From an uncultured Eudoraea sp. (GTDB taxonomy: Bacteria; Bacteroidota; Bacteroidia; Flavobacteriales; Flavobacteriaceae), in assembly GCF_947260015.1 (NCBI RefSeq), contig NZ_CAMYOM010000014.1, positions 1 through 50,573 of the forward strand: a stretch of 50,573 nucleotides of DNA. Reading direction: 5' to 3'. Positions 41,694 to 49,400 of the stretch are shown one piece after another. The notes under the pieces are model-generated. The model had not been told where the DNA came from and did no database searches. It worked only from the letters and a program-made list of their open reading frames with translations. Made by a program: the position numbers and the translations under genes. Position 1 is the first letter of the stretch, and each line of letters opens with the position of its first letter.

Positions 41694-42266
41694 ATGATGT
41701 TTGAAATTGGTAAAGCAATTATCTCTGACCATATTTTGGAAAAGGAATTTGTATGTAATTTATCTGCATGCAAAGGCGCATGTTGCGTAGACGGCGAGGC
41801 GGGAGCTCCTTTGGAGGATAAGGAGACTGAGATTCTAGTCGATATTTACGCGGATGTTAAGCCTTTCCTTACGCCCGAAGGAATTTCAACCATAGAAGAA
41901 CAAGGTGCATTTATAAAGGGCGCAGATGGAGAATGGGAAACACCTTTGATTAATAAAGAGGAATGTGCATATGTAATTTATTCAGAAAAAGGGATCGCTA
42001 AATGTGGCCTGGAAGAAGCTTATAATAAGGGTGCGACAAAATGGAGAAAACCAGTATCTTGTCATTTATATCCGGTAAGAATTACAGAATATGAGCAGCT
42101 TACGGCCGTGAATTATCATAAATGGGAAATCTGCGATCCGGCATGTTCTTTGGGAGAAGAATTAAAAATCCCAATTTATAAGTTTGTAAAAGAGGCACTG
42201 ATTAGAAAATTTGGCAAAGAATGGTATGAGGAATTGGAAAAAATAGCTGTGGATAATTCTAAATAA
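41694..42266 (+). CDS. DUF3109 cysteine-rich protein
   Basis: A 190-residue protein of the DUF3109 family, widespread in Bacteroidota. Cysteine motifs are conspicuous: VCNLSACKGACCVDGEAGAP near residues 20-39, then KEECAYVIY, AKCGLEEAYN, VSCHLYPVRI and WEICDPACSLG. The spacing is compatible with zinc or iron-sulfur binding, similar to the YkgJ-like CxxxCxxCC group, but which metal is bound is unknown. The first methionine may be the second of the MM pair. Its 3' end overlaps the convergent kinase gene by 8 bp. Confidence 0.88.
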   Translation: MMFEIGKAIISDHILEKEFVCNLSACKGACCVDGEAGAPLEDKETEILVDIYADVKPFLTPEGISTIEEQGAFIKGADGEWETPLINKEECAYVIYSEKGIAKCGLEEAYNKGATKWRKPVSCHLYPVRITEYEQLTAVNYHKWEICDPACSLGEELKIPIYKFVKEALIRKFGKEWYEELEKIAVDNSK

Positions 42267-44232
42267 TAGGAATATGTAATATTACCTTAGTGCCACAGGC
42301 TGTATCCTGCTTATCAAAAAGGTCCACAATTTCTATCTCAAATTTATTTTGATAATCCTTGGAAAAATTAGCCAAACGTTCTTTGGTAATGTTGATCCCG
42401 ACTGATTTTCTTTTTAACACCTTGCTTTGTTTGAGTTTTTCGGCAACTTCTCTTCCCACTCCATTATCAGTAATAGAGATATCTATATAACCCTTTTTCC
42501 TTCTACTTATATGCAATAAAATGGATTTGTCACCATCTTTAGAAGAGAGACCATGCCATAGGGCGTTTTCCAAAAATGGTTGAAGAATAAGAGAAGGAAC
42601 TTTAACTATATGGGGATCAATACCTTCATCTATGTTTATTTTAAATTGAATTTCATTGGAAAAACGAATATTTTCGATTGTCATATATAGTTCTACAGTT
42701 TCTAACTCTTCAGCTAAAGGAATTTCCCTTAAGGAAGAGGCTTCAAGTATTTTACGTACTAATTTCGAAAACTTATTTAGATAATGGACCGCGTTCTTTT
42801 TTTCATTGTTTATGATATAAAGCTTAATTGAATTTAGTGAATTAAATAAAAAATGAGGATTCATCTGACTGCGAAGCATGGATTGCTCCAGAGTGAGCAT
42901 CTTCTTATCACTTTTAAGCTGATTTTGTCTGTATAAAATATATAACATAAGCGTAAACAGAGCCAATAACAAGGCACTAATCAATAATGTATTTTGATTT
43001 CTTCGAAGCTTTAAGTTTATAATTTCATTTTCTTTTGCCAGTACTTCTATCCTGGCGTTCTTATTATCCTCCTCAGAGCGAGAAATCATATCAGCTACAT
43101 ATAACTTATTGCGATCATTTGATATTTTTTCTTCCACGTTTTCTGCTTTTATAAAGAATTCTTTGGATTTTTTGAAATCATCTTGATTTTCCCATAAATC
43201 GGATAGGAACGAGTAGGCCTCTTCCATCTCACTAAGCAGATTATATTTCTCAGCTATTTCCAGCCCTTTATTCAGATTCCTTTGAGCCTCCTCAAACTGA
43301 TTATTTTGTATCTGAGCCCAGCCGATATTCAAGTAAATTTCAGAGATGATTTTCATATCTCCCAGTTCTTCGGATGCCCCAAGAATAGATTTAAAAATTT
43401 GAAGCGCTTCCTTACTTTTGCCCTGATGAACGTATACATGGGCAATTCCGAGATTTGACAGGATGTTAATTCTATTAGATCCAATCTTTTCATTAAAGAC
43501 TAATGATTTTTCATAATTTTGCAGCGCTTCTTCCAACTTACTCTCGGCCTCAAGGCATTCTCCAATATCTTTATAATTCATGGCAAGTCCGAGGGTATTA
43601 CCCAACTCGGCCTCAAGCACTATTGATTTCCTGAAATTGGCAATTGCAAGATCATATTGGCCTAAAGTCCTATATATATGCCCGATACTGTTTAAAGAAA
43701 AATTTAAGCTCCTTTTTGTATCCTCATTAGGATGTTCCAGATATTCTGCAAGTCCTATTGCCTTTTGCGCACAGTCCAGGGCAGAGGGTATAGCCTCTGT
43801 TCGGCGATAGACGGCACTTAACATAGACAAGCTGTAAATTTCAAATTCTGTATTGTCATTTACCTCGGCTGCCTCTAAAGCCATTTGGTGTAGTCTAATC
43901 GCTTTATTATATAGCGCGTAATCACGGTATGATATTCCTAATTGATTAAGTGCATAGGATGCACCCGGATAAAAGTTTTCCTTAGCTGAAGCATTGGCAA
44001 AATAACGCATCAAACTAGTATCTCGCCGTATTGGATTAAGTACAATGTCCAAATCATTATAAGTCTCAGGAGCCTTGGATATAAGGTTTTCCGTTGTTTC
44101 CTTGAAACTTTTGCCGCTCAACTGTGCATTGGCGTCATTTAAAAAGAGTATGATACTAACACAAAAAAGGAATGAATAATTTAAAAAAACAGAAGGACTA
44201 TGGGGGATTTTAAAACGCTTTAACATAGGCAA
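42259..44232 (-). CDS. TPR-containing LytS/YehU-type sensor histidine kinase
   Basis: A 657-residue kinase: signal/membrane segment (about residues 18-36), a periplasmic array of about six to seven TPR-like repeats (about 60-370; for example LGISYRDYALYNKAIRLHQM and SLNSIGHIYRTLGQYDLAIA), a single transmembrane helix near 412-432 (LLISALLLALFTLMLYILY), then a His_kinase domain with the phospho-acceptor in RSQMNPHFLFNSLNSIKLY (His about 459) and an ATPase domain with N box LQPFLENALWHGL and G1 ITDNGVGR. It lies 12 bp after the LytTR regulator gene and clearly forms a two-component pair with it. The TPR signal is unknown. Confidence 0.93.
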   Translation of the reverse strand: MPMLKRFKIPHSPSVFLNYSFLFCVSIILFLNDANAQLSGKSFKETTENLISKAPETYNDLDIVLNPIRRDTSLMRYFANASAKENFYPGASYALNQLGISYRDYALYNKAIRLHQMALEAAEVNDNTEFEIYSLSMLSAVYRRTEAIPSALDCAQKAIGLAEYLEHPNEDTKRSLNFSLNSIGHIYRTLGQYDLAIANFRKSIVLEAELGNTLGLAMNYKDIGECLEAESKLEEALQNYEKSLVFNEKIGSNRINILSNLGIAHVYVHQGKSKEALQIFKSILGASEELGDMKIISEIYLNIGWAQIQNNQFEEAQRNLNKGLEIAEKYNLLSEMEEAYSFLSDLWENQDDFKKSKEFFIKAENVEEKISNDRNKLYVADMISRSEEDNKNARIEVLAKENEIINLKLRRNQNTLLISALLLALFTLMLYILYRQNQLKSDKKMLTLEQSMLRSQMNPHFLFNSLNSIKLYIINNEKKNAVHYLNKFSKLVRKILEASSLREIPLAEELETVELYMTIENIRFSNEIQFKINIDEGIDPHIVKVPSLILQPFLENALWHGLSSKDGDKSILLHISRRKKGYIDISITDNGVGREVAEKLKQSKVLKRKSVGINITKERLANFSKDYQNKFEIEIVDLFDKQDTACGTKVILHIPII

Positions 44233-44244
44233 TTCTCGAATTGA

Positions 44245-44979
44245 TTATAACAAATCCAAAAAATCAGACTTTTTTTGACGGGATACAGGAATTTTATGAT
44301 TGGATTGAAGCACCACATATCCGTCTGTTTTGAGAAACTCCTTAATTTTTGTTAAGTTAATTATATAAGAGTTGTGTATCCTGAAAAAGGAATCACTTGG
44401 CAGCAATTCATTAACTTCTTTTAATTTTTTGGTAAGTACAATCTTGTGTCCATCTGCAAGGTAAATGGTACTGTAATTGCCATCAGATTCGGCATATAGG
44501 ATTTGATCGCTTTCCAGAAACACTAATTTCCCGTCCGTATTGAAAGTAATTTTTTTATGCTTTTCACTAGCATTAAAATTTAGTAGAATTTTTTCCAGTC
44601 TGTCCGCAGTATAATTTTTTGCATTAAACTTTTTAATTTTTACAATAGTATCTTTTAAGTCGTCAGTATCAATGGGTTTTAAAAGATAATCAATAGCCTC
44701 ATTTTTGAGAGCTTTTATCGCATATTGATTGTAGGCTGTTGTAATCACAACAGGAAAATCCTTATTGCTTAAGTTTTGAATGAATTGAAATCCATCCATG
44801 GTGGGCATTTCAATATCCAAAAACAAACAATCCGGGGTGTTGTGACTAAGATAACTCAATGCTTCAAAAGGATCGGTAAAAGAAGCAACTACATTTATTT
44901 CATCACTGAAATTAGTCAATTCCCAGGAAAGACTTTGAAGTGCCTTTATTTCATCATCTACAATAACAGCTTGTAACAT
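44245..44979 (-). CDS. LytTR-family response regulator
   Basis: A 244-residue protein: receiver domain (1-120) with acidic pocket (VDDE), phospho-acceptor Asp55 in DCLFLDIEMPTMDGFQFI and the switch segment NEAIDYLLKPIDTDDL, then a LytTR DNA-binding domain (about 140-244; FLESDQILYAESDGNYSTIY, SFFRIHNSYIINLTKI). It is the partner of the kinase encoded 12 bp downstream. LytTR proteins bind direct-repeat sites; targets are unknown. The 360-bp gap upstream carries a perfect -7 box for this gene (45005-45012) and precedes divergent genes for two small secreted proteins, which are possible targets. Confidence 0.94.
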   Translation of the reverse strand: MLQAVIVDDEIKALQSLSWELTNFSDEINVVASFTDPFEALSYLSHNTPDCLFLDIEMPTMDGFQFIQNLSNKDFPVVITTAYNQYAIKALKNEAIDYLLKPIDTDDLKDTIVKIKKFNAKNYTADRLEKILLNFNASEKHKKITFNTDGKLVFLESDQILYAESDGNYSTIYLADGHKIVLTKKLKEVNELLPSDSFFRIHNSYIINLTKIKEFLKTDGYVVLQSNHKIPVSRQKKSDFLDLL

Positions 44980-45012: not shown

Positions 45013-45340
45013 GCAATACTAGTAGTATGGCTTGTTGAAATATGTATAGATAGATTAGATAGGTGTGTGACCAGCGCTAAAAGACTTAAAGTTTGCATAC
45101 CAAAGGAAATTTTTACAGAATGTAATTTTTTATTTTTTGAACGAAAAAATGGATTTTCAGATTTATAACAAATTCATCTTACACAGACCAAAATATTTAA
45201 ATTAAAACAGAAGTAGTAAAACAATTTACACATAATTCCATACCAATTATACAAATGAACTGTGTAGTTTATTTGTTACGGCATAATTTAGTTTTATAAT
45301 AATTTCGAAGAAAGAGTGTTGTTGAACGCTTGCAAAGTAT
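45013..45340. other. AT-rich intergenic region without gene
   Basis: Very AT-rich spacer between the LytTR operon and the divergent small-protein genes. I see no open frame with coding character, tRNA or strong hairpin. Towards the right end TTTG (45272-45275) followed 24 bp later by TAATTTCG (45300-45307) could form an imperfect promoter for the small gene at 45350. A short palindromic element TTACA-GAA-TGTAA lies near 45115 and is too weak to call. Confidence 0.4.
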
Positions 45341-45349
45341 TTGTACTCA

Positions 45350-45523
45350 ATGAAAAAATGTGTTATATTTTTCACCCTTTTAATCTTAGCACTTCTGCTT
45401 GCAGTTTTGACGGAAAATATGGAACGTTCAGTAGTTGTAGATGAAGTGGTGCTCGCGGGAAATAGCGTTGATCATCGTTTGGCTGAAGAACAGACCGAAA
45501 TTGCAGAATTAAGTCCGGAATAA
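45350..45523 (+). CDS. small membrane/secreted peptide, unknown function
   Basis: A 57-residue protein from the ATG at 45350 (MKKCVIFFTLLILALLLAVL), with a strong N-terminal hydrophobic segment and a short acidic remainder ending AELSPE. The frame is open to a TTG three codons earlier, but the ATG gives a normal signal-peptide-like start. No family is recognised. It lies 18 bp before the 182-residue secreted protein gene and diverges from the LytTR/kinase operon, suggesting a small operon. Coding status is likely but not certain given its size. Confidence 0.55.
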   Translation: MKKCVIFFTLLILALLLAVLTENMERSVVVDEVVLAGNSVDHRLAEEQTEIAELSPE

Positions 45524-45541
45524 AAATATAAATAAACCACT

Positions 45542-46090
45542 ATGCCACATATTGTAATCAAATCCCTCAAGGTTGGTCTATGGGTTATTTTTACCCTCAT
45601 TTTCATTACTACTAATTCAACTGAAATAAAATCTGATAAGAGGATCTTGGCAGCGGGTGGTTATGTGCTTAATATTGCTGGGGAAAGTGAGTTAAAACTT
45701 GAAGGGATTATAAATTTTGAAACTGAAATAAAGCGTTCTTCAATAGGGGAAGAGTATACCACCTTAAAATTAAGCCTAACTGATGGTCAGCAGCTTCCGG
45801 GACATTCACTGGGATTTTTTCTTTCAAAACATAACCAATTTGTGGAAATAGGAAATGGACGACATGAAATCTCAGGGAATATTGAAGGATTCCTTAATTA
45901 TTTTGATGGGGTGTTTGGTTTTGCCAACGTAAATGAATTTGGGGAATTACCATTTTTTGCAAAAAACGGTGCCGTTACTATTGATAATATTGAAGACAAA
46001 ATATTAAAAGGCAGTATAAATGTAGTTTTTGAAAATATCAATGAAGAAAGTATTGCAATAACTGGTAACTTTGTTGCTTTAAGAAGATAA
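45542..46090 (+). CDS. secreted protein of unknown function
   Basis: A 182-residue protein with a signal peptide or anchor (KVGLWVIFTLIFITTNSTE, about residues 10-28). The mature part is predominantly beta (for example LKLEGIINFETEIKRSS and GAVTIDNIEDKILKGSINV) and has no cysteine and no recognisable catalytic motif. The pattern resembles small beta-sandwich proteins that report a 'no effect of calcification' type of general fold rather than an enzyme; I do not recognise a family. It is probably transcribed with the 57-residue gene upstream. The structured intergenic element begins about 115 bp after its stop. Confidence 0.65.
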   Translation: MPHIVIKSLKVGLWVIFTLIFITTNSTEIKSDKRILAAGGYVLNIAGESELKLEGIINFETEIKRSSIGEEYTTLKLSLTDGQQLPGHSLGFFLSKHNQFVEIGNGRHEISGNIEGFLNYFDGVFGFANVNEFGELPFFAKNGAVTIDNIEDKILKGSINVVFENINEESIAITGNFVALRR

Positions 46091-46122: not shown

Positions 46123-46130
46123 TACATTTG
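46123..46130 (+). promoter_or_regulatory. candidate -7 box upstream of the structured element and HTCS gene
   Basis: TACATTTG followed by C is a perfect TAnnTTTG box. If used, transcription would start near 46137, placing the structured element 46208-46400 either in a separate small RNA or in a leader of about 340 nt ahead of the HTCS start at 46478. A -33 element at standard spacing is not clear. Confidence 0.4.
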
Positions 46131-46207
46131 CTTAACGTAATTAAGTTCATTGAATAATAGTAGCAGTTTTAGTTTTATAAGAACAAATGAAACTGTCAAA
46201 CCATTAA

Positions 46208-46400
46208 GTACGACTCCGGGGAGGTATATCTTTATAGAAATACCGCTGCTTTAATGCAGGCCCATAGATGTAATTGCTAATTGGATAACCATACCAATCA
46301 TGTTGGTCATGAAATTTGCTCGATTTTTAGGTTTCGGGGGAACTACCTAGATCAGCAGACCCAAGTGGTAATTAAATTTTAAACATCTATTGAGTCGTAC
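46208..46400 (+). ncRNA. candidate structured RNA (or MITE-like element), unassigned
   Basis: A 193-bp stretch closed by a perfect 9-bp inverted repeat, GTACGACTC (46208-46216) and GAGTCGTAC (46392-46400). Immediately inside the right arm, ACATCTAT (46383-46390) pairs with ATAGATGT (46264-46271). Between the left arms are two hairpins: GGTAT/ATACC with inner TCT/AGA (46223-46244) and CTGC/GCAG (46246-46259). Within the second stem are ACCAA/TTGGT (46293-46307) and a long composite hairpin with TGCT-GAT/ATC-AGCA, TAGGT/ACCTA and TTC/GAA capped by GGGG (46317-46357). All arms are compatible with one fold. No protein frame spans it. It matches no RNA family I can recall. The strand is assumed from the HTCS gene. 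Confidence 0.5.
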
Positions 46401-46477
46401 GGTTTGGCGGTATTTTCTGATTTATCTCCTTTTGATTATTTATTTCGAATTTCTTTGCAAGATTTAATTTTTAAATA

Positions 46478-49400
46478 ATGGCACGGAAAGATATTTTTTT
46501 GTATTTCGCAAGGATTCTTTCTTCCACATTATTGGTTGTGATTTGCACAACTGATGCCTGCTCCCAGTCGCAAATCACCTTTAGACAACTTTCCATCAAA
46601 GAAGGGTTATCTCAAAATAGCGCCGTATCAATTAGTCAGGATAGTACTGGTTATCTTTGGATTGCCACGCAGGATGGCCTTAATAGATACGACGGTAAAA
46701 AATTTATTTATTTTCCCTATAGTTTTGTGGATATTACCAAGCCGGATTATAGTAATCTGGGTAAAGTATACACTGATAGAAAAGGGGAATTATGGATCAT
46801 TCCACTAGATAGAATTCCCCGAAAGTTACTGCCGGAAACTCAAACTTTTGAACCAGTCCCTGGAATCGACGATGCCAGTGTGATTTATCAAGACAAGAAT
46901 TTTAATTTATGGTTTGGGACCTATTCCAATGGTCTTTATTCTCTTAAAAAAGATTCGGAATATGTAAAGCAAGAAATTTTACCTTCAAACCTGAATGGTA
47001 CAATTTTCAATATTGTGGAAGATTCTTCCGGGGATTTACTTCTGGCAAGCGAACATTCAATTATTAGTTTCAATTCACACACCGGGAAACATAATAATTT
47101 AAATCCTGAGAGTTTAGCAAATGGTTCTATTGAGGCAAATTTTAGTGACATCGTTTTTGACAAGAAAGGCAGGCAGTGGATAGCTACATATGGAGATGGA
47201 TTGTATTTAAAAGAGAAAAATGGGAATCATTTTAATAGGATATCTAAATTCTCCTTTTCAGATCCATTACCCAATGACCTTAATATATTAGATCTATATT
47301 TAGATAGTAAAGATAGGATTTGGGTTGCTACCTACGGCAGGGGGATGTATATGATAAATTTATCTACACAAAAAATAAATCATTTTATAGCCGAAAAGCA
47401 AAATCCGAGGGCCCTGCATTACAATGATATCCTGTGCATTTACGAAGATTATACCGGAACAATATGGTTGGGAACGGACGGTGCAGGCTTAAGTTTTTAC
47501 GATGAATATCTGGAAAAATTTAATTCCTTTATTAATTACCAAACTCCCGAAAATATTAACATTGACGTTGTTCGGGCAATAACAGTAGACAAGGAAAAAA
47601 GAGTATGGATAGGTACTTCCGGGAAAGGTCTTACTCAGTTTGATCCACTAAGCAATAGCTGGCAAACTTTCACTACAAATGCAAATTCAATAAATAACAT
47701 TGCATCTAACAGGGTTATGAGTCTTTTGGTTGATGGACAAAATAACCTTTGGATTGGCACTCAGGGGGAAGGACTTAATATTTATGATAGTAAAGAAGAA
47801 TTTATTCACTATTCCGAGGATACTGCGATTCCCTTATCTGCGGAAACAATTTGGACCATATTTGAGGACTCTGAGAATAGAATTTGGCTTGGTACCAGAG
47901 AAAAGGGATTAATTCAATTTGATAAAAGCAAGGGTGAAGTTAAATATCTAAAAGGTCAAGTACTTCACAGAAACAATTTACCCGGCAATAATATTCGCGT
48001 GATTACCGAAGGAAAAAAAGGTCAATTATGGCTTGGTACAGAAACCGATGGAATTGTATTATTTGATACCGAACAGGAATCTTTTATATCCTTTAATGAG
48101 ATAAATGACACCAATTCTTTGTCAAACAATAATATTAAGTCCCTTTATTATTCCCCAGATAATGTTCTTTGGATTGGCACTAATGGAGGAGGCCTGAATG
48201 CCCTGGATTTAAATAGTAAAAAATTCTTTCATTTTACGGTTGAGGATGGTCTTGCCAATGATGTAATCTATGCCATAATGCCCGATAGTAACGGAAATCT
48301 GTGGTTAAGCTCTAACAAGGGCATTACCAGGTTTACAAAGGGTTCTAATTTAGAGGCCAGTCCGGTAATAGTGAATTATACAAATTATGACGGATTAGCC
48401 ACAGAATTTAATACCGGGGCCTATTACAAAGATTTAGATGGCAACTTATATTTTGGAGGCCTGGATGGTTTTTATTGGTTTAAGCCCAATGAGATAAAGG
48501 TAAATAGCATCTTACCAAAAACCAGTATTACAAGTTTGGAAGTATTAAACGAACCATACCCTATGAAAAAGGGATTAACCCTTGGTCATACACAGAATAC
48601 ACTCTCGTTTACCTTCTCCAGTATGCAATATGCACTTCCCGAAAAGAATAATTATCAGTATAAACTGGCGAACTATGATGAGGACTGGGTATATGCCGGG
48701 AATAATAATTTTGCACGCTACTCTTATCTGCCATCAGGCGATTATGAATTATTAGTGAAGTCCAGTAATTATGATGGTATATGGAATGAAACACCCGCCC
48801 GTTTTGCTTTTAAAATAGCCTTTCCGTGGTATTGGAATCCGGTGGCAAAATTGATCTATTTCTTTTTGTTTCTTTGGGCAATGTATGGAGTTTACAGCTA
48901 TTTTAAATGGCGGTGGAAGATGAAGCTCGATTTGGAACTCAAAGATGAAGAAGCATCACGATTAAAGAAATTAAATGATTTCAAATCTAAATTGTACACT
49001 GATATTTCTCACGAATTTAGAACGCCATTAACCCTTATTTCTGGTCCCGTTGATGCTAAACTAAGCGAAGGCAGTTTGTCAGATAGAGATTTTGAAAGTT
49101 TTACCATGATAAAGCGAAATACTAACAGGCTATTGACCCTTGTAGACCAGTTGTTAAATATGGCTAAACTGGAAAAAGGTAAACTGTCGCTAAAAGTAAA
49201 AGAAGGAAATTTGGGGTTATTTATTGGCGCCATTGCCAGTTCATTTAAATTACGCGCTGCACAAAAAAATATTGATTATCAAATTAAGGTTGATAAACTT
49301 CAAGACTGCATGTATGACGAGGATGCTATGGAAAAAATATTGACAAACCTGCTTACAAATGCATTAAAATATTGTCCGGAAGAAGGTTTATGTGAATTTA

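Follow-up and report, generated by a model that had tools for sequence, protein, structure and literature searches.

A covarying structured RNA beside a conserved LytTR two-component system in Flavobacteriaceae

Introduction

What is the highly structured intergenic element that lies upstream of an HTCS gene in the genome of an uncultured Eudoraea sp. (Flavobacteriaceae), and which of its neighbors does it belong with? The window analysed here is the whole stretch of DNA that contains it, 50,573 nucleotides in length. The original prediction, made from these letters, placed the element at 46208-46400 (193 bp) and saw in it a free small RNA, a leader of the HTCS gene or a MITE whose ends are a 9-bp repeat; it would look to conservation in other genomes, covariation and the number of copies to tell a functional RNA from the rest. 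In our view, little is known of regulatory RNA in Bacteroidota. In this study, we examined the fold, conservation and neighborhood of the element across the family, and we compare it with known regulatory systems.

Results

Fold and extent of the element

The single minimum-energy fold of the 193 bp has a free energy of -62.9 kcal/mol, compared with an average of -41.4 kcal/mol for dinucleotide shuffles (z = -4.85), and none of the 200 shuffles is as stable; for the opposite strand, z is -3.70 and 1 of 200 shuffles is as stable. The 9-bp closing stem, the adjacent 8-bp stem and the internal hairpins that had been proposed all occur together in this one fold. It is also evident that the structure runs outward beyond 46208-46400 by an 11-bp outer stem (P1a in Table 1), both arms of which lie outside the 193 bp, and that both covariance models described below (R1 and R2) set the bounds of the element at 46186-46420. 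The stems and fold of the original prediction therefore stand, whereas its ends do not: the 193-bp element is the middle of a structured RNA of about 220 nt, whose best bounds are given in Table 1. The surroundings are as they had been described. The -7 box lies 78 bp upstream of the 193 bp, the HTCS start (ATG at 46478) lies 78 bp downstream, and the spacer bears no reading frame, the longest open stretch that shares more than 60 bases with 46186-46420 being 44 codons. A possible alternative hairpin can form between CAGTTTT (46164-46170) and AAACTG (46190-46195, in the 5' arm of the outer stem), and a similar arrangement (46164-46195 in the window) is seen in several loci of the same genus.

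Table 1. Positions in the window of the structured RNA, its helices, the neighboring genes and the putative control sites
Feature	Position	Strand	Basis or remark
Whole structured RNA element	46192..46411 (model match 46186-46420)	+	Fold, outer stem, both models, covariation
P1a outer stem, 5' arm ACUGUCAAACC	46192..46202	+	Consensus helix 1; both-sided changes in 7/7 pairs
P1a outer stem, 3' arm GGUUUGGCGGU	46401..46411	+	Pairs with 5' arm 46192..46202
P1b closing stem, 5' arm GUACGACUC	46208..46216	+	Fold; consensus helix 2, both-sided changes in 7/9 pairs
P1b closing stem, 3' arm GAGUCGUAC	46392..46400	+	Minimum-energy fold
P2 hairpin, variable in sequence	46223..46244	+	Fold; consensus helix 3 taken as counterpart
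P3 hairpin (CUGC/GCAG)	46246..46259	+	Fold; not observed in every relative, not part of the model structure
P4 stem, 5' arm AUAGAUGU	46264..46271	+	Fold; consensus helix 4 taken as counterpart
P4 stem, 3' arm ACAUCUAU	46383..46390	+	Minimum-energy fold
P6 hairpin ACCAAUCAUGUUGGU	46293..46307	+	Consensus helix 5; single-sequence fold pairs this stretch slightly otherwise
P7 core hairpin UGCUCGAU..AUCAGCA	46317..46357	+	Consensus helices 6-8
Core of P7, AGGUUUC-GGGG-GAACUACCU	46329-46348	+	Near-invariant also in loci not chosen by 20-mer
TPR plus His_kinase sensor kinase	42259..44232	-	Domain match, cluster C1
LytTR response regulator, divergent	44245..44979	-	Domain match, cluster C0
LytTR-type direct repeat, first copy CAATTTACACA	45222..45232	+	Motif scan
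LytTR-type direct repeat, second copy CCAATTATACA, 21 bp on	45243..45253	+	Motif scan
Small hydrophobic (likely membrane) protein gene, starts MKKC	45350..45523	+	Conserved, coding-type codon pattern
182-aa protein (cluster C3), just 5' of the RNA	45542..46090	+	No Pfam or NCBIfam match
TAnnTTTG -7 box TACATTTG, possible internal promoter	46123..46130	+	Pattern match

Covariation and coding strand of the RNA

Base-paired positions were compared among relatives in two alignments. In A2, which was built with MAFFT before any model and from which its own structure was predicted, 15 of the 42 predicted pairs show both-sided changes; 49 cells carry such changes, compared with 14.1 in shuffles (none of the 500 reaches it). 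In A3, which was fitted to model R1, both-sided changes are found in 33 of 42 pairs and in 482 cells, against 133.4 in shuffles (0/500); 94.9% of its cells are paired, a proportion that falls to 29-39% once the partners are slid. A3 holds 108 matches from 100 loci, counting in 8 wrong-strand matches (E values 0.0016-0.0095) and two partial ones (L055 and L130). The shuffles ignore relatedness, whereas the slid versions keep relatedness but favor a structure derived from the same sequences. Compensatory changes are present in every helix of A3, with eight covarying helices in all. Covariation is strong, and by these compensatory base changes across relatives the element is a conserved structured RNA. 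The lack of conservation and covariation that would have refuted the original prediction is not observed. When loci were scored on both strands, one strand scored far higher than the other (for example, 223.6 vs 23.1 bits at L129), which indicates that the plus strand is the RNA.

Distribution, copy number and known RNA families

In a blastn search of 99 genomes (its own and 98 relatives), strong matches were found in eight of the nine same-genus (Eudoraea) genomes; the core was matched in the ninth and, outside the genus, in six more genomes (G010, G020, G027, G035, G041 and G059). The element is therefore conserved beyond its own genome. Covariance models R1 (built from 21 sequences) and R2 (a broader model, from 37) each match 61 of 397 sampled Flavobacteriaceae genomes and 36 of 237 genera, the two sets differing by one genome each; the sequences behind both models go back to a selection by an exact 20-mer, and the scans score few candidates per genome under strict filters, so that weak members may be lost. 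R2 matches 5 of 196 genomes in the order sample and 4 of 198 in the phylum sample, all of them Flavobacteriaceae. The 20-base core occurs in at least 119 stretches of named genomes, and the 80 matches listed include Maribacter, Allomuricauda/Muricauda/Flagellimonas, Robiginitalea, Zobellia, Arenibacter, Eudoraea, Pricia, Croceivirga and others, metagenome bins labelled just Flavobacteriaceae, Bacteroidia or Bacteroidetes, one Algicola, and one strain each named Cytophaga and Flavobacterium. The exact core has no match in viral contigs, on which ground a phage origin of the element was rejected.

The element is single copy in its own genome: of 25 blastn matches at E ≤10, the 24 non-self ones are short, with a best E value of 0.022. 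A small mobile element, such as a MITE, bounded by the 9-bp repeat would account for the short inverted ends, and multiple dispersed copies, the other finding that would have refuted the original prediction of a functional RNA, would be expected of it. The one genome copy, the fixed place beside a LytTR regulator, the compensatory changes in every helix and the lack of core matches in viral contigs contradict this option, which we regard as negligible. One same-genus genome contains a second copy of the RNA (L242, G002:C16:2900-6000; 111.9 bits), accompanied by a small protein of its own and, close by, another LytTR regulator gene; this contig may be contamination.

Rfam 15 gives no match in the window at the gathering threshold, and below the threshold only chance-level matches appear near the element and around 18 divergent relatives. 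This agrees with the original prediction that no known RNA signature is present, and a known Rfam RNA was rejected for lack of any match above chance in the window, at the element or around the 18 divergent relatives. Of the options first put forward, a free small RNA probably fits best, to judge from conservation, covariation, single copy number and the absence of an Rfam match.

Gene neighborhood

We examined 135 loci, some genomes being represented twice (whole-genome and named records), and grouped the neighboring proteins into single-linkage blastp clusters (C0-C10), whose domains are taken from the proteins of the window. The LytTR regulator cluster (C0) is found at 104 of the 135 loci, on the opposite strand every time, and in 81 of the 82 loci with at least 2000 bases upstream, the exception being L081. 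The TPR kinase cluster (C1) is found at 82 loci, the C3 182-aa protein is near the 5' side of the RNA at 59 of 135, and C5, to which the DUF3109 protein belongs, comprises 50 ORFs. We take C2 to be NrdB and C4 to be NrdA from their protein sequences, not from a database match. The RNA thus has a near-constant two-component neighbor on its 5' side.

The 3' side is variable. A downstream gene was called at 126 loci; the nearest one belongs to C2 in 63, C6 in 14, C10 (HTCS) in 13 and C8 in 11, and at 31 it lies on the opposite strand, facing the RNA. Because the downstream neighbor varies, the element is not part of HTCS. A leader or riboswitch-like element for the HTCS gene would agree with the HTCS start close downstream in the window and with the 13 loci where this cluster comes first; it should have a constant same-strand downstream gene, and the 63 loci with the NrdB cluster and the 31 with opposite-strand genes contradict it. 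We consider this second option of the original prediction very improbable.

Between the regulator and the RNA lies a small protein with M[KR]K[CS] and a hydrophobic stretch. A strict test, in which K3 and C/S4 are conserved by selection of the hits, finds it in 106 of 142 distinct loci; in a separate small-protein search, the match at L153 is spurious. A looser test finds a small protein, mostly beginning with MKRC, in 17 of the other 36 loci, and neither test finds one in 19 of the 142, of which 11 have less than 1300 bases upstream. Differences at first, second and third codon positions are 0.484, 0.232 and 0.639, respectively, as in coding sequence. The window's copy (ORF from 45341) has no match in Pfam or NCBIfam. 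In one group of loci (e.g., L041), a gap of some tens of bases separates the small-protein gene from the RNA, and a shared transcript is therefore likely in that group.

This arrangement raises the alternative that the small-protein transcript ends in this RNA as a structured, cis-acting 3' untranslated region, which would serve in 3'-end protection, transcription stop or as a processing barrier and have no targets of its own. On its own strand, the RNA does lie 3' of either the small protein or the 182-aa protein, at a distance of no more than tens of bases from the stop codon in some genera, and a T-run follows the outer stem in several loci when judged by eye. However, by the same judgment many loci are without a T-run after the stem, and in the window no terminator was called at the RNA by a scan that is blind to long-range stems. 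A -7 box also stands between protein and RNA in 5 of 10 same-genus loci, and a simple 3' end needs neither eight covarying helices nor a near-invariant hairpin loop. We therefore judge this explanation unlikely, though it deserves more weight than the other rival readings.

Putative control sites

LytTR regulators bind spaced direct repeats. A motif like CCAATTATACA recurs as two copies between the regulator and the small protein, and the repeat pair (at most 5 mismatches of 22) is present in 73 of 78 regions, in 69 of them at exactly 21 bp, compared with 17 of 1560 letter shuffles, none at 21 bp; the motif was chosen by eye from these same regions, and all 78 come from RNA-bearing loci. The form TTAYACA-N14-TTAYACA occurs once in the window's own genome, at the 45222-45253 site, as does a reversed control, and in that exact form it is absent from 4 of 9 same-genus genomes. 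The 21-bp-spaced repeats fit LytTR binding and may be regarded as putative sites. At the position of the -7 box, an exact box is found in the 5 same-genus loci mentioned above, a box with one mismatch in a sixth, and none in the remaining four.

The core hairpin

The GGUUUC-GGGG-GAACUACC hairpin is nearly invariant across relatives. An exact 20-mer served to select the first loci, so that identity of the core there proves nothing; in two sets of loci reached by model, protein or region search, the exact 20-mer is present in 35 of 37 and 12 of 20. In these 57 loci pooled, several of which are duplicate named records, the core is exact in 47 and different in 10. Eight of the variants begin with G instead of A, which a C at the last base compensates in two of them, and the remaining two have one extra G in the loop, one of them being altered in the 3' arm as well.

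A 9-mer complementary to the loop, TTCCCCCGA, has 131 matches (11 in the RNA itself) in 10 same-genus genomes together, vs 126 for the reversed pattern, and 16 vs 7 in the window's own genome alone. With this single 9-mer, no enrichment of target sites is seen in the 10 genomes pooled, and a role of the GGGG loop as contact site, which we infer from its conservation, gains no support from such a simple count over the genus. The result would suit a protein-binding or scaffold RNA, in which the core hairpin would be bound by an RNA-binding or membrane protein, the adjacent small hydrophobic protein perhaps being the one. The near-invariant hairpin with its CU bulge and GGGG loop and the presence of the small protein in most loci point the same way; against it, the partner is still only a candidate, and the one 9-mer scanned is commoner than its control in the window's own genome. 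We hold this possibility to be quite improbable.

In L017, L018, L100, L109, L133, L135 and others, CCCCC is found some 200-260 bases 5' of the core, often 3' of a TATTTTTAC-like box, and in L017 TTCCCCCGAAA is exactly complementary to part of the core hairpin. C-rich stretches (five or more C) occur upstream of the RNA in 24 of 135 regions vs 38 of 500 control windows; they are limited to part of the loci and absent in the window.

Candidate RNAs in sister genera

Homologs of the regulator at E 1e-40 or better were found in 33 of 60 family genomes, in 22 of them at least 55% identical. Eleven spacers beside such regulators, from genomes without a model match (L199-L209), were inspected: NrdB is the next gene in seven (L200-L202, L204-L206 and L209), and motif-like sites under a strict pattern, mostly in single copy, are present in eight. 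R2 finds nothing better than E 1.1 on the sister-genus loci, and Rfam gives no match on those given to the search. By eye and single-sequence folding, six spacers (L199-L204) have a hairpin candidate followed by GATTA..TAATC, with the loop UCGUGGGGAU exact in four, and a second candidate RNA with a GC hairpin and a T-run at its end is seen in L199, L201, L202, L204, L205 and L207 (in five with GGGG before the GC hairpin). L200 and L209 have a stretch that resembles the second candidate by eye, without GGGG. Some sister genera thus appear to keep the regulator and repeat-like sites and to carry other candidate RNAs, which the regulator faces (for example at L202:2412-2561).

Discussion

The results describe a conserved, covarying RNA that has no match in Rfam 15, a near-constant two-component neighbor and regularly spaced repeats between the two. 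We lean, by slightly more than an even balance of probability, to the explanation that it is a new structured regulatory RNA family and the output of the neighboring LytTR two-component system. To go by their domains, the TPR kinase would phosphorylate the LytTR regulator, which in turn would bind the two direct repeats 21 bp apart. The bound regulator would then switch on the divergent unit, consisting of the small hydrophobic protein, a second small protein in some genera and the RNA; the gene order suggests that these are co-transcribed, and in the genus of the window the -7 box may give the RNA a start of its own. The long two-part closing stem would set the RNA apart as a unit in itself, and its release from the transcript by cleavage may take place there. 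The inner branches may present the near-invariant hairpin, with its GGGG loop and CU bulge, as a contact for target RNAs or a protein. As the next gene changes from locus to locus, the RNA would presumably act in trans and not on that gene.

If this explanation is right, a covariation-supported RNA family tied to one conserved two-component system also gives that system a testable output; neither its signal nor its output was found named in the open-licence literature. Nor did titles and abstract openings in that literature, or the passages of PMC9723704, PMC3673130 and PMC10197871 consulted here, contain a description of this RNA. With the other candidate RNAs that sister genera carry at this site, one could ask how the circuit of a regulator is retained when its RNA is exchanged.

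Several known systems invite comparison. As in 6S RNA and 6S-Flavo (RF01685), the ends are closed by a stem. However, 6S RNA has a long stem with a large central bubble, whereas the consensus here is multi-branched and without an Rfam match, and 6S RNA was rejected on the structure; the RF01685 model has no match in the window's genome nor in 14 controls, so its silence does not show absence. RNA as the output of a response regulator is known from GacA-RsmY/Z, VirR-VR-RNA and CiaR-csRNA, to which the proposed circuit is similar. CsrA-type sponges carry repeated GGA loops, whereas a single conserved GGA-bearing loop is present here.

In the same bacterial family, Rfp18 of Flavobacterium psychrophilum is likewise a structured, conserved small RNA; it is described as widely conserved in the genus Flavobacterium, and its deletion as lowering two protease mRNAs (PMC9723704). 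From this description alone, Rfp18 might be one of the sister-genus candidates. In F. johnsoniae, LytTR regulator mutations of unknown effect are reported (PMC10197871).

The closest likeness in layout is with staphylococcal agr/RNAIII, in which AgrA acts at the P2/P3 divergent promoter region to give the structured RNAIII with the hld peptide gene, that is, a LytTR-family regulator divergent to a unit of a large structured RNA and a small peptide gene (PMC3673130). The same layout is seen at our locus, where the LytTR regulator is divergent to the RNA unit and direct repeats, spaced as LytTR sites are, lie between them. The component set of agr (AgrB, AgrD, an AgrC-type kinase and AgrA) was rejected here: no AgrB or AgrD is recognized by Pfam among six window proteins, in a search that can miss short peptides; the kinase is of the TPR plus His_kinase type; and the window's LytTR regulator scores 37.6 bits against the AgrA model, whose cut-off is 400. 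RNAIII pairs with target mRNAs; for the RNA described here, the counts of the loop-complementary 9-mer point different ways in the genus (131 vs 126) and in the window's own genome (16 vs 7). We tentatively extend the comparison, as a doubtful but possible reading, to a Bacteroidota counterpart in layout of agr/RNAIII, in which a small membrane protein, a TPR kinase and a LytTR regulator that has a single dedicated double site would go together with a large effector RNA, the near-invariant GGGG-loop hairpin being the working end of that RNA. The slot by the regulator would then be an RNA-exchange site, filled in different Flavobacteriaceae lineages by unrelated RNAs, several with exposed GGGG, under the same switch. 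Unlike in agr, the small protein here is a separate gene and looks membrane-anchored, and the RNA, of about 220 nt, belongs to a Gram-negative phylum; it is to the layout of agr/RNAIII, and not to the sequence of its RNA, that we liken it.
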